A DNA stretch of 64,000 nt from positions 62,001 to 126,000 of the forward strand of contig JAJRPM010000002.1 in NCBI GenBank assembly GCA_024280775.1, in the 5' to 3' direction. Within the stretch, counting starts at the first letter, position 1. Each line of letters begins with the position of its first letter. Source of the DNA: Candidatus Zixiibacteriota bacterium. GTDB taxonomy: Bacteria > Zixibacteria > MSB-5A5 > GN15 > JACZUZ01. This document shows, in pieces, positions 14,680 to 53,500 of this stretch. The translations under genes were made by a program, and so were the position numbers. The notes below the pieces were generated by a model. The model was given only the letters and a program-made list of their open reading frames with translations. It was not told where the DNA came from and made no database searches.

Positions 14680-14714
14680 GTAGGTCAAGTCCCCTTCTAA
14701 GGGACTTGACGCAC
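14680..14714 (+). repeat. REP-like palindrome 1 (GTAG head)
   Basis: GTAG at 14680 is followed by a perfect 10-bp stem GTCAAGTCCC (14684-14693) / GGGACTTGAC (14701-14710) with a 7-nt loop. It lies 38 bp after the epimerase stop, so it could also act as a transcript end, but no T tract follows. Head plus hairpin matches the definition of REP elements mobilised by RAYT transposases. Confidence 0.75.
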
Positions 14715-14810
14715 CAAGACTCTATTAGGAGTAAGGTACATATCAAAGAAGATTGGGGATGCAAAAAAGACCCAACAATCTCCGGAGGATACGGTGAATA
14801 GCCAACCAAT

Positions 14811-14839
14811 CAATCGAAACCACAAGGGTTTCTACCTAC
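14811..14839 (-). repeat. REP-like palindrome 2 (reverse orientation)
   Basis: Read on the minus strand: GTAGGTAGAAACC, then CTTGT, then GGTTTCGATTG. The GTAG head is at 14839-14836 and the stem is 14827-14832 paired with 14816-14821. Apart from one position it is identical to REP 4 at 16248 in the opposite orientation. It sits 21 bp upstream of the next start codon, just before the ribosome site GAGGAG. Confidence 0.75.
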
Positions 14840-14860
14840 AGAACTTATAGAGGAGATTAA

Positions 14861-15514
14861 ATGGCTATTAAGTTTGAGTGTCCGGTGTGCAAGGCAAAAG
14901 TGTGTGCAAAGGGAGTTGGGGTAAGCTCCAAGTGCCACCGTTGCACTAATGTTATTCAAGGTGTGCCCGATGACTATTCTCAGATTACTGATGATGAATA
15001 CGAGAGTTGGCTCGTTGATTCTAGTTTGAATGTGGATAAGCCGAGTATTGATGGAACCATAGAAACTGTTCGCGATGCCGACATACACCACAGCGGATTG
15101 GCTAGCGGCATACGTGGTTTTGCTTGGGTTGTCTCTGTAATCGCTATGATCGGTATAATCTCTAAGGCTAGTGAAAGCTCCTATGAAGGTGGGATTGATG
15201 GGACTACAGCCTTTACGTGGGTACTAGCTGTGGTCATAGAGCTAATGCTCTTACTCGGAGTGGCGGCAGTAATAGAGTTGTTGGGCGCGATTGAGCGGAA
15301 CACGATGAGTGGCACAAGAAAGCAAATGAGACATATTTCTATAGAACGTCCACAAGAATTCTCGGGTCCACAAGCGATCAAAAAAACCACTACCGCAACA
15401 ACGATATGTCCACATTGCAAGGTTGGAGTAACAATTGAGGAGTCGGAGGTGGTTGGCGAATACTTGAAGTGCAAGAGTTGCGGCAACAATGTGTTTGGAT
15501 CTGCCACTACTTAG
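14861..15514 (+). CDS. Membrane protein with zinc ribbons at both ends, unknown function
   Basis: A 217-residue protein of unknown family. The N-terminus has a CPVC...CHRC four-cysteine ribbon (residues about 6-31). Two hydrophobic segments follow in the middle (around residues 85-105 and 110-135). The C-terminus has a second four-cysteine ribbon CPHC...CKSC. Zinc binding by both is an inference from cysteine spacing. A good ribosome site (GAGGAG) precedes the ATG. It stands alone between REP-like elements; the flanking genes give no hint of role. Confidence 0.7.
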   Translation: MAIKFECPVCKAKVCAKGVGVSSKCHRCTNVIQGVPDDYSQITDDEYESWLVDSSLNVDKPSIDGTIETVRDADIHHSGLASGIRGFAWVVSVIAMIGIISKASESSYEGGIDGTTAFTWVLAVVIELMLLLGVAAVIELLGAIERNTMSGTRKQMRHISIERPQEFSGPQAIKKTTTATTICPHCKVGVTIEESEVVGEYLKCKSCGNNVFGSATT

Positions 15515-15725
15515 ACTCCCGACCGTCTTTTTTTCTAAGATAATCTTCATAGGTTTCCACTGGGCCTGGGGAGATTGTGATCCCCATAGCTTCCTGAAGT
15601 GGAAGTGTCAAATTGCTATAGATGCGAGCAGCAGTTTCCAAGTTGAGTAGGTTGGGAGCCCTGCGCTCCCGACATTTTGCTTTCAAGTCGCCCACAGCTT
15701 GCTGTCGGAATACATCGCCCCACAC
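15507..15725 (-). CDS. Short ORF interrupted by a REP-like element, possibly a gene remnant
   Basis: A 72-codon minus-strand frame directly downstream of the dinB-like gene. Its C-terminal half (ARIYSNLTLPLQEAMGITIS, then PGPVETYEDYLRKK) reads like genuine protein but belongs to no family I recognise. Residues around 18-27 are encoded by the inverted repeat of REP 3, so either the element inserted into a small gene in frame or the frame is fortuitous. No clear ribosome site. Confidence 0.3.
   Translation of the reverse strand: MWGDVFRQQAVGDLKAKCRERRAPNLLNLETAARIYSNLTLPLQEAMGITISPGPVETYEDYLRKKDGRESK
15647..15680 (+). repeat. REP-like palindrome 3 (GTAG head)
   Basis: GTAG at 15647, then stem GTTGGGAGC (15651-15659), loop CCTGC, and GCTCCCGAC (15665-15673); one G-T pair interrupts otherwise full complementarity. 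Same head and geometry as the other copies but a different stem sequence. Confidence 0.7.
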
Positions 15726-15726
15726 C

Positions 15727-16197
15727 TCAATCCCAAATCAAAGCCCGCTCAACCCCAGCCGTCCGCAAATAATCCAACATCTGACCCATATGCACCGACT
15801 CATGATAAGCAATCCGATTTAGATAATCACCAAGCCCCTTAATCTGACCTTTCTCACTCCGCACAATCTTAACCTCAGAGAAATCACTCTCCGAAAACCC
15901 ACGAATCATCTCAATAAAATCCGCCCGATGTGGCTGTGCCAAAGCCAATTCATTCTCAACACTAACCAACGGCGCATCACCCCACGGCGATTTAAACTCC
16001 CCAAGATTCCCTCGGTTCTTAACAATCGTATGAAACAAATGCTCGCCCTCAAGCACATGACGAATCATCTCAATCACCGTCAAAGCCTTCTCATCAGGCC
16101 GCCACGAAAGCGACTCCTGAGGAATCAACTCCCAAACTTTAATACTCCGCCGACGAATCTCCGAAAAGTTCAAAACAACAATCTCACTAGCAGTCAT
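15727..16197 (-). CDS. DinB-like / DUF664-type four-helix metalloenzyme-like protein
   Basis: A 156-residue protein of the DinB/YfiT-like superfamily, which uses a four-helix bundle with a three-histidine metal site. Candidate ligands are a His in the MIRHVLEGEHLFH region and two in AYHESVHMGQMLDYL. WRPDEKALTVIEMIRH is the usual second-helix entry pattern. Family members include thiol S-transferases for bacillithiol or mycothiol, but most are uncharacterised. Upstream ATGs at 16212 and 16203 exist; GGAAGG sits about 6 bases before the ATG at 16197, which I prefer. The + strand here is strikingly C/A-rich although the gene is on the minus strand. Confidence 0.8.
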   Translation of the reverse strand: MTASEIVVLNFSEIRRRSIKVWELIPQESLSWRPDEKALTVIEMIRHVLEGEHLFHTIVKNRGNLGEFKSPWGDAPLVSVENELALAQPHRADFIEMIRGFSESDFSEVKIVRSEKGQIKGLGDYLNRIAYHESVHMGQMLDYLRTAGVERALIWD

Positions 16198-16247
16198 AAC
16201 CATCCCTTCCAAATGTCATCCTAACCAAGGCCCCAAACTCCAGTCCA

Positions 16248-16276
16248 GTAGGTTGAAACCCTTGTGGTTTCGATTC
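16248..16276 (+). repeat. REP-like palindrome 4 (GTAG head)
   Basis: GTAG at 16248, stem GTTGAAACC (16252-16260), loop CTTGT, GGTTTCGAT (16266-16274). About 20 consecutive bases of stem and loop are identical to REP 2 on the opposite strand. It lies upstream of the dinB-like gene in a C-rich intergenic space. Confidence 0.75.
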
Positions 16277-16391
16277 TCACATAACAAGACAACATAACGC
16301 CAAACCCACCTCCCTCCAAATCCCCCACACACAAATTCACCACAACCTCACCCCAAAATCCCAACCACCCCCATAGTAAAAGGACTTACCC

Positions 16392-17102
16392 ATGCCCGTC
16401 ACCGAAAAACAACTCATCGCCAATCGCCAAAACGCACAAAAATCAACCGGACCAAGAACAGAAACTGGCAAACGCCGCTCATCACAAAACGCCGTCAAAC
16501 ACGGACTGCGCACAACCGACACCGTCATCAATTCACCCCACCTCAAAGAAGACCCCGCCGAATACAAAAACCTCATAACCTCTCTAATCGCCGAACTAAA
16601 CCCCGACGGCGCTTTCCAAACCGAACTAGTCCACAAAATCGCCAACTGCCTCTGGCGCCAGCGCCGCGCCATCAACGCCGAAACCGCCCATCTCAATCAA
16701 TCGCTAGCCGAAGACAGAATCGCCCAAACCTCATCAATCGACGCCAAAGCTCTCACCGACAAAGACCGGGAAGACCTCTGCAACATTGTAGCCAAAGCCC
16801 GGTCAATCCCAACCGGACTATTCTCACTAAACCTCCTGCGCTACGAACTCCGCAACGACCTCCAACTAGCCCGCTCCTACAAACTCCTCCGCCATTTACA
16901 ACGCCTGCAAAAAACAAAAATACTACAAGATTACTATGACGACTACCTCCATATTCCGAACGAACCCATTTCCCCCCAACTGAAAGAACCCGAGCCACTC
17001 GTAACCATCCAAGCCCCATCCGTAGGTCGGGTTCCGGCGTTCGCTTCAGCGAACAAGAAACCCGACAGGAGCGCCACGCATGCGAAAACGCCCTCATACT
17101 GA
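16392..17102 (+). CDS. Conserved hypothetical protein with 'ANRQNAQKSTGPRT' N-terminus
   Basis: A 236-residue cytosolic protein. The N-terminal sequence ANRQNAQKSTGPRTETGKRR, followed by SSQNAVKHGL, defines a conserved family found in many environmental bacteria, often in many copies per genome; I know of no assigned function. The central region is helical and charged (RQRRAINAETAHLNQSLAED). The last 26 or so codons are contributed by REP 5 and read as low-complexity sequence, so the original C-terminus may have been replaced by the repeat. The coding strand is extremely C/A-rich (by my count 26 C against 10 G in 16501-16560). Confidence 0.75.
   Translation: MPVTEKQLIANRQNAQKSTGPRTETGKRRSSQNAVKHGLRTTDTVINSPHLKEDPAEYKNLITSLIAELNPDGAFQTELVHKIANCLWRQRRAINAETAHLNQSLAEDRIAQTSSIDAKALTDKDREDLCNIVAKARSIPTGLFSLNLLRYELRNDLQLARSYKLLRHLQRLQKTKILQDYYDDYLHIPNEPISPQLKEPEPLVTIQAPSVGRVPAFASANKKPDRSATHAKTPSY
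17022..17070 (+). repeat. REP-like palindrome 5, two-tier hairpin inside a coding end
   Basis: GTAG at 17022, outer stem GTCGGGTT (17026-17033) / AACCCGAC (17059-17066), and an inner perfect stem GTTCGC (17039-17044) / GCGAAC (17049-17054) with loop TTCA. It overlaps the last codons of the preceding hypothetical gene. Confidence 0.75.
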
Positions 17103-52609: not shown

Positions 52610-53146
52610 CTATAAGACACCCGATGGCTCCAGGGCATCCATGGCTAACGGGATATTCGCTTCCCCAGTATAGTAACCATAGCTCGACCAGCGCCATTGC
52701 CTTGCTTCGGGCGCCAAACCTAGTTTCACTGGATTATTGTGACAGTAGTTTATCTTTTCAATGACAGTCTCTTGTGACCGGCAATTGTGATCATAGCATC
52801 TCGGTTGCCAAAAGGCGCGTCGCTGGATCCCGTTCTTACTAATCCAGCAAGAATCCGGGAGTGAGACCATCTTCTCGGCGATTATCGCGCTTGCAGATTT
52901 CGATTTCAGAGCGCCAATGACAGGGCCGAGTTTCACTGAATCTGGTGGATGCAGAACCAGATGAACGTGCTCTGGCATTATCACGTAGCCGAAAAGCCGA
53001 ATTTTATGCTGGATCTGCATCGCTTCCAGCGCCTGAAGAAATGTTTCGATTACCTGCGGCTGTGTAAGTAGTTTGTTTCTCCGATAACAGCAAAATGTCA
53101 CGAAGCGCGCGGTGTTGAGATTGTCGTAGTGTCGGAGTTTGGGCAT
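52610..53146 (-). CDS. REP-associated tyrosine transposase (RAYT), Y1/HUH family
   Basis: A 178-residue HUH nuclease from the ATG at 53146 (the frame extends further upstream through the palindromic leader to 53308, but MPKLRHYDNLNTARFVTFCC is the normal start). The HUH pair is His60-Val-His62 in MPEHVHLVLHP, the catalytic Tyr is Tyr134 in INYCHNNPVKLGL, and WRWSSYGYY is the downstream RAYT signature. RAYTs nick single-stranded REP hairpins next to a GTAG-type tetranucleotide. Several REP-like copies with that head lie at 14.7-17.1 kb, so this protein may be, or have been, their mobiliser. Confidence 0.92.
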   Translation of the reverse strand: MPKLRHYDNLNTARFVTFCCYRRNKLLTQPQVIETFLQALEAMQIQHKIRLFGYVIMPEHVHLVLHPPDSVKLGPVIGALKSKSASAIIAEKMVSLPDSCWISKNGIQRRAFWQPRCYDHNCRSQETVIEKINYCHNNPVKLGLAPEARQWRWSSYGYYTGEANIPLAMDALEPSGVL

Positions 53147-53175
53147 AGACACTCTATAGTTTTCAGGCTCACGAT

Positions 53176-53191
53176 TGTCAACCGGTTGACA
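53176..53191. repeat. Perfect 16-bp palindrome upstream of the RAYT gene
   Basis: TGTCAACCGGTTGACA is completely self-complementary and lies 30 bp before the RAYT start. With this position it could be an operator for the transposase gene or part of its binding architecture. It is not part of the terminal inverted repeats. Confidence 0.7.
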
Positions 53192-53278
53192 GTGTGAAAT
53201 CCTGCGAGTTCTCGTTGCGAGGTGAACCGCCGCAAAACGGACTATTGTCAATAAATGAGAGGGAAACCCACCTGAAAG

Positions 53279-53500
53279 GTGAGCCACCCCGCCGGAGATT
53301 TTAATCATGATGGAGTTTATAATATTGTGGATTTGACCGATGCGATTGCCAGAGTTTTTTCAGGTGGAGCAGGGCCGTTCTGTCAGGATGAGGCTGACTC
53401 CAATGGGGATGCTGTTTTTAACATTGTAGATGTGACATTCAATATCAGCCGGATATTTGCCGGGGGCGCCGCTCCGGTTTGCGGGACTACTGGAAACTGA
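53279..53500 (+). pseudogene. Orphan dockerin-like fragment truncated at the RAYT element
   Basis: The frame encodes only a dockerin-like pair, GDFNHDGVYNIVDLTDAIAR and DSNGDAVFNIVDVTFNISRI, then AGGAAPVCGTTGN and a stop, the same ending as the tails of the 58-62 kb proteins. The first codons are inside the right inverted repeat and no signal peptide or catalytic domain precedes them. The 5' part of the gene is not found on the left side of the element, so it was lost by deletion or replaced. A strong terminator follows 34 bp later. Confidence 0.75.

Follow-up and report, generated by a model that had tools for sequence, protein, structure and literature searches.

Four REP families are represented by five solitary GTAG-headed hairpins at one locus of a Candidatus Zixiibacteriota genome

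Within 2.4 kb of the genome of a Candidatus Zixiibacteriota bacterium lie five palindromes that begin with GTAGG and continue with dissimilar stems. Such a cluster raises the question of whether a single kind of element is recognised by its head and geometry while its stem drifts, whether several repeat families lie side by side, or whether unrelated hairpins happen to share a head. The window, i.e. the whole stretch of 64,000 nucleotides that was analysed, corresponds to C5:62001-126000 of an assembly of 3.17 Mb (3.167 Mb; 17 contigs; here G000). MAGs of Candidatus Zixiibacteriota supply the closest named relatives of a protein encoded in the window. Genome-wide scans read 2.757 of the 3.167 Mb, most of contig C7 being covered by pattern searches alone. 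They relied on a direct scan for GTAG followed by a stem, since the five hairpins represent four families and the information in head plus stem is too low for a genome search with one covariance model.

The hairpin cluster and its genomic background

All five palindromes listed in an earlier note on this DNA are present (window positions; A- and B-type ends are treated below):

14680-14710, plus strand: REP of family F1 (GTAG-GTCAAGTCCC-CTTCTAA-GGGACTTGAC), stem gtcaagtccc/gggacttgac, solitary
14813-14839, minus strand: REP of family F4 (GTAG-GTAGAAACC-CTTGT-GGTTTCGAT), stem gtagaaacc/ggtttcgat, solitary
15647-15673, plus strand: REP of family F3, A-type end (GTAG-GTTGGGAGC-CCTGC-GCTCCCGAC), stem gttgggagc/gctcccgac with one T:G, solitary
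16248-16274, plus strand: REP of family F4 (GTAG-GTTGAAACC-CTTGT-GGTTTCGAT), stem gttgaaacc/ggtttcgat, solitary
17022-17066, plus strand: REP of family F2, B-type end (GTAG-GTCGGGTT ... AACCCGAC), stem gtcgggtt/aacccgac, solitary

The cluster at 14680-17066 is not expected by chance. When dinucleotide shuffles of the region were scored for GTAGG and a stem of 6 or more bp within 0-3 nt of it, a mean of 0.06 hairpins was expected and none of 2000 shuffles reached the observed five. Nowhere else in the 2.76 Mb read are as many REP units found per 2.4 kb. The relationship that had been noticed between the minus-strand hairpin near 14811 and the plus-strand hairpin at 16248 is real, as these two F4 copies share 34 nt at 91% identity in inverse orientation (14813-14839 on the minus strand versus 16242-16275). 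The stems had been said to differ completely; they have a G-T-N-R-R-R start in common and belong to four repeat families of this genome.

The F2 copy contains a 25-nt loop with the inner hairpin GTTCGC-TTCA-GCGAAC. It lies within the 3' end of the open reading frame 16392-17102, where it encodes residues 211-225 of 236. The REP makes up part of the C-terminal end of this protein, and homologous proteins in other Zixiibacteriota end differently. An Rfam search returned no family matching the window hairpins. Elsewhere in the window, an FMN riboswitch is located at 2534-2661 (Rfam RF00050).

Across the genome, 113 perfect stems of 8 or more bp follow a GTAG in the 2.757 Mb, versus 5.1 expected from shuffles (maximum 9), an excess of the kind that the earlier note had proposed to look for. 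GTAG ranks first of all 256 tetranucleotides for enrichment next to such stems: it precedes a perfect 8-bp stem in 123 cases, which is 6.2 times the mean. The hairpins are GTAG REPs, as had been suggested: the head stands directly 5' of the palindrome and the copy number is far above chance. Grouping of the hairpins by stem, with two or fewer mismatches allowed in a good copy, yielded at least eight families with 216 good copies, roughly 13-47 in each:

F1: stem GTCAAGTCCC; 20 exact heads genome-wide
F2: stem GTCGGGTT, long loop holding a second hairpin; 46 exact 15-mer heads genome-wide
F3: GTYGGGAGC / GTCAGGAGC
F4: GTYGAAACC, GTCGAATCC / CTCAAAACC
F5: stem GGCAGAACC
F6: stem GGGCACAG
F7: GGGCGGGG / GGGCGYCG
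F8: T-GGCGGGG / T-GGCGTCC

Each family keeps its own stem, and its copies are near-identical at tens of distant loci. The five window hairpins are real leftover solitary copies of four of these families (F1, F4 twice, F3 and F2), and the mixture of stems at the locus arises mostly because several families lie side by side, not from one element with a freely drifting stem. The REPs are predominantly extragenic, with 187 of the 216 copies outside crude open reading frames and 29 inside, in a genome of which such frames cover 88% (coding fraction 0.88). Units of different families are found within 2 kb of each other in 54 of 139 cases, compared to a mean of 30.9 (sd 6.2) under random intergenic placement.

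Convergent gaps comprise 12% of the intergenic bases and hold 35% of the intergenic REPs, a placement that would also suit intrinsic terminators, and the F3 copy at 15647-15673 indeed scores terminator-like. However, the other four have no T tail, terminator-like sites show no excess (5 versus 3.6 in shuffles), the shared head is the top tetranucleotide of the genome-wide ranking, and each family recurs with sequence identity at distant loci. The idea that the five are unrelated terminators without a common head, or chance hairpins, is hardly tenable; for the five as a group it is refuted by the shared head, the recurrence of the families and the absence of a terminator excess.

Paired ends and RAYT genes

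Same-family dimers, in which two inverted REPs carry GTAG outermost at a fixed short spacing (REPINs), occur in all eight families. The spacings are narrow, for instance 83-86 in 16 of 19 F8 dimers and 106-108 in all seven F3 dimers. In contig C5, four F8 REPINs stand in tandem with a 114-bp period (G000 C5:131906-132333). F6 pairs with a nested F7 REPIN are found at G000 C1:281548-281728, C10:1061-1249 and C13:61994-62181; the F6-F6 spacing is 180-188 bp with the nested REPIN and 80-86 bp without it. None of the five window copies has a same-family mate within 210 bp, and the F1 copy at 14680-14710 lacks one at the usual spacing of ~119 bp. As no window copy forms part of a recognisable REPIN, the mobility of the five is inferred from their relatives elsewhere in the genome.

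Nine RAYT-like genes were detected, eight by the PF01797 profile and the ninth (C17:195023-195568) with an F8 RAYT as query. PF01797 matches and a motif alignment of eight genes, in which the HUH motif and the catalytic Tyr are recognised, place them in the Y1_Tnp family. One of the RAYT-like genes (C1:183880-184455; C1:184111) is decayed: it carries H-I-Y in place of HUH, and its Tyr region has gone out of frame. Four genes are flanked by REPs of one family, and a further one lies in the window:

C9:26795-27304: F1 cognate RAYT, F1 REPINs on both sides
C5:250-762: F3 cognate RAYT, flanked by F3 REPs
C17:195023-195568: F7 cognate RAYT, F7 REPINs on both sides
C11:129053-129538: F8 cognate RAYT, A-end and B-end F8 REPs on either side
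52610-53359 of the window, minus strand (C5:114793): RAYT-like gene (Y1_Tnp, PF01797)

The gene in the window has no flanking GTAG REP and is not assigned as cognate to the five; inspection of C17:30383, C5:114793 and the genes on C6 and C1 revealed no convincing flanking GTAG REPs. For F2, F4, F5 and F6, no flanking cognate RAYT was found in this genome. Relatives supply three of these associations. G001, a genome of the same genus, has a RAYT at C10:199317-199754 that is enclosed by F2 REPs at 199229 (plus) and 199816 (minus), and its RAYT L188 is flanked by F4-type REPs (GTCGAAACC). In G002, an F2 REP (C236:720-734) follows a RAYT at 211-681. F5-type REPs flank the RAYTs L167, L198, L201 and L209 of relatives. 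A cognate RAYT for F6 was found neither in this genome nor in the relatives examined.

An F7 REPIN lies in frame inside its own cognate RAYT gene (G000 C17:195308-195387, between the HUH and Tyr motifs), where it adds about 27 codons and no stop. C17 ends in ~112 bases that match the start of C11, and these contigs are therefore probably adjacent across an F7 REPIN. The notion that copy number follows the presence of the RAYT was dropped: F1 fits, with 20 copies here beside its RAYT and 9 in G001, where no F1-flanked RAYT is among the matches listed, but F2, among the largest families, does not, with 46 copies here without its RAYT versus 16 in G001 with it.

Very probably, then, four REP families left the five hairpins as solitary relics, and each family is a non-autonomous single-stranded-DNA element with a RAYT of its own that copies it and to which the family stem is tied. 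Each family is predicted to depend on its RAYT as an HUH/Y1 transposase, and the mobile unit would be the REPIN, mostly 75-127 bp long with the GTAG heads of its two inverted REPs outermost. Different RAYT lineages within one genome would give rise to different stems. Genes and gaps are short at this locus, which may have collected insertions of several families whose mates have since decayed.

Constraint and compensation in stem and loop

The part of the REP that is constrained was examined with 29 REP-flanked RAYTs of the phylum, representing 22 distinct stems. The consensus of the RAYT-flanking stems reads G-K-C-R-R-R-A: G1 is present in 21 of the 22, C3 and R4 in all, R5 and R6 in 21 each and A7 in 20, and 15 of 16 distinct stem-plus-loop types with 5-nt loops carry the loop C-N-T-G-Y, an agreement that is in part shared ancestry, since many of the RAYTs were retrieved because they resemble a single gene. 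Over the first eight positions, stems to the left and right of one RAYT differ by 14% and those of different RAYTs by 40%. Similarity between RAYTs correlates with similarity between stems (Mantel r=0.35, a value reached in 74 of 5000 permutations). The claim that only head and geometry are constrained does not hold against these family-specific, RAYT-linked stems and their shared positions. The pattern agrees with published biochemistry of a group 3 RAYT, which depends critically on GTAG and on a base of the loop, and less on the stem sequence (PMC8266576). Judged from this literature and the conservation, RAYTs may recognise GTAG together with the loop and some of the stem, on the strand that carries the folded REP, and stem positions that are not read would drift with compensation within a family.

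Compensatory change can be followed best in F2. Among 17 distinct F2 REPs of one length, double changes affect five of the seven pairs of the inner stem, and inner and outer stem together contain 16 compensatory cells versus 3.6 in shuffles (0 of 500 as high). Pairing falls from 99% to 27-49% when the partner columns are slid. For this part of F2, drift under structural constraint is the right description. In F8, the A-end stem occurs as GGCGGGG, GGTGGGG, GGAGGGG, GGCAGGG and GGCTGGG with mostly matching 3' arms. Compensatory drift, which the earlier note had postulated for the whole cluster, is thus real but local: it takes place within a family, most clearly in the F2 inner hairpin, and does not explain the mixture of stems among the five.

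A single class of elements, recognised by head and geometry alone and free to change its stem as long as complementarity is kept, would draw on precisely these F8 and F2 variants and on the many stem changes that the group 3 RAYT tolerates provided that loop and GTAG are intact (PMC8266576). It is nevertheless very improbable, because copies within a family are near-identical, stems sort by RAYT, and positions 1, 3, 4-6 and 7 are conserved together with the loop. Covariation and the preference for convergent gaps would equally be expected of hairpins kept for a function in RNA, as 3'-end stabilisers of mRNA or as terminators, with different stems because only the RNA fold matters. This explanation is unlikely, though less so than the preceding one, as GTAG is conserved although it lies outside the stem, and inverted copies at fixed spacing and the association with RAYTs are left unexplained. 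A secondary RNA role of the REPs is possible.

Unequal mates and relation to known systems

Within the REPINs of families interpreted here as RAYT-copied elements, the two mates are often unequal. The division into A and B ends was made once the data had been seen; in F8, F7 and F3 the two types are discrete stem sequences. Among same-family inverted dimers, an A end is joined to a B end in 18 of 19 cases for F8, 13 of 15 for F7, 7 of 7 for F3, 12 of 13 for F2 and 3 of 4 for F4. F1 ends differ in loop length alone, and F1 is therefore not counted as a stem heterodimer; the stems of F5 and F6 mates are alike. Folding with DNA parameters predicted one long hairpin for every homodimer built in silico. 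Among natural pairs, those of F3, F7 and F8 divide into long and local hairpins, those of F4 adopt local folds, and those of F2 retain an outer long pairing with local inner hairpins. According to these calculations, different stems in an inverted pair weaken the long hairpin that identical REPs would form.

Di Nocera and colleagues, who described heterodimers, wrote that the preference for them "has no obvious explanation" and suggested protection from hairpin nucleases (PMC3733652). It is conceivable, albeit tentatively, that unequal mates are selected because mismatched upper stems prevent collapse into a long hairpin or cruciform, so that each REP folds alone as a RAYT substrate, or because left and right ends stay distinguishable. 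The same counts would also result if the copies descend from a single unequal founder pair.

In Stenotrophomonas and Pseudomonas, a genome is described as having several REP classes that are associated with different RAYTs (PMC3686654, PMC3733652). As this is the published norm, several stems in one genome need no special mode of recognition. A close counterpart is the GTAG REP superfamily to which the SMAG repeats of Stenotrophomonas maltophilia belong, described with the same head, 6-10 bp stems, several families per genome, complementary stem subfamilies, inverted dimers including heterodimers, some intragenic copies and family-specific RAYTs (PMC3733652). The stem and loop sequences are different here, five of the eight families are almost wholly heterodimers, and the host group is not among the phyla named for the superfamily in the sections cited. 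REPINs of Pseudomonas fluorescens likewise consist of an inverted pair as the repeated unit, with a RAYT acting in trans and relic singlets, but their doublets are mostly identical pairs that form one long hairpin (PMC3116915), whereas mates of F2, F3, F4, F7 and F8 differ in stem. The BIMEs of Escherichia coli pair non-identical y and z REPs served by one RAYT, TnpA-REP (PMC8266576; PMC3733652). E. coli REPs have a conserved bulge and a group 2 RAYT, in contrast to the stems found here, which are perfect or contain a single T:G and in most cases start immediately after GTAG, as those of group 3 do. IS200/IS605 elements likewise have an HUH/Y1 transposase, and a tetranucleotide guide lies 5' of each of their subterminal hairpins (PMC8266576); here the two REPs have opposite orientations and the transposase acts for the most part in trans.

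Coexisting families, complementary stem subfamilies, intragenic copies and heterodimers have all been published, and the finding is ordinary in kind. With it, an uncultured lineage joins the REP/RAYT world through a 3.2-Mb genome that carries at least eight families and nine RAYT-like genes. The 22 distinct RAYT-flanking stems provide a natural panel in which the fixed parts (GTAG, stem base and loop) can be told from those that drift. Near-obligatory heterodimers together with the folding calculation open to testing a pattern that has been published without an explanation, and selection for unequal mates, if true, would answer the puzzle of heterodimer preference (PMC3733652).
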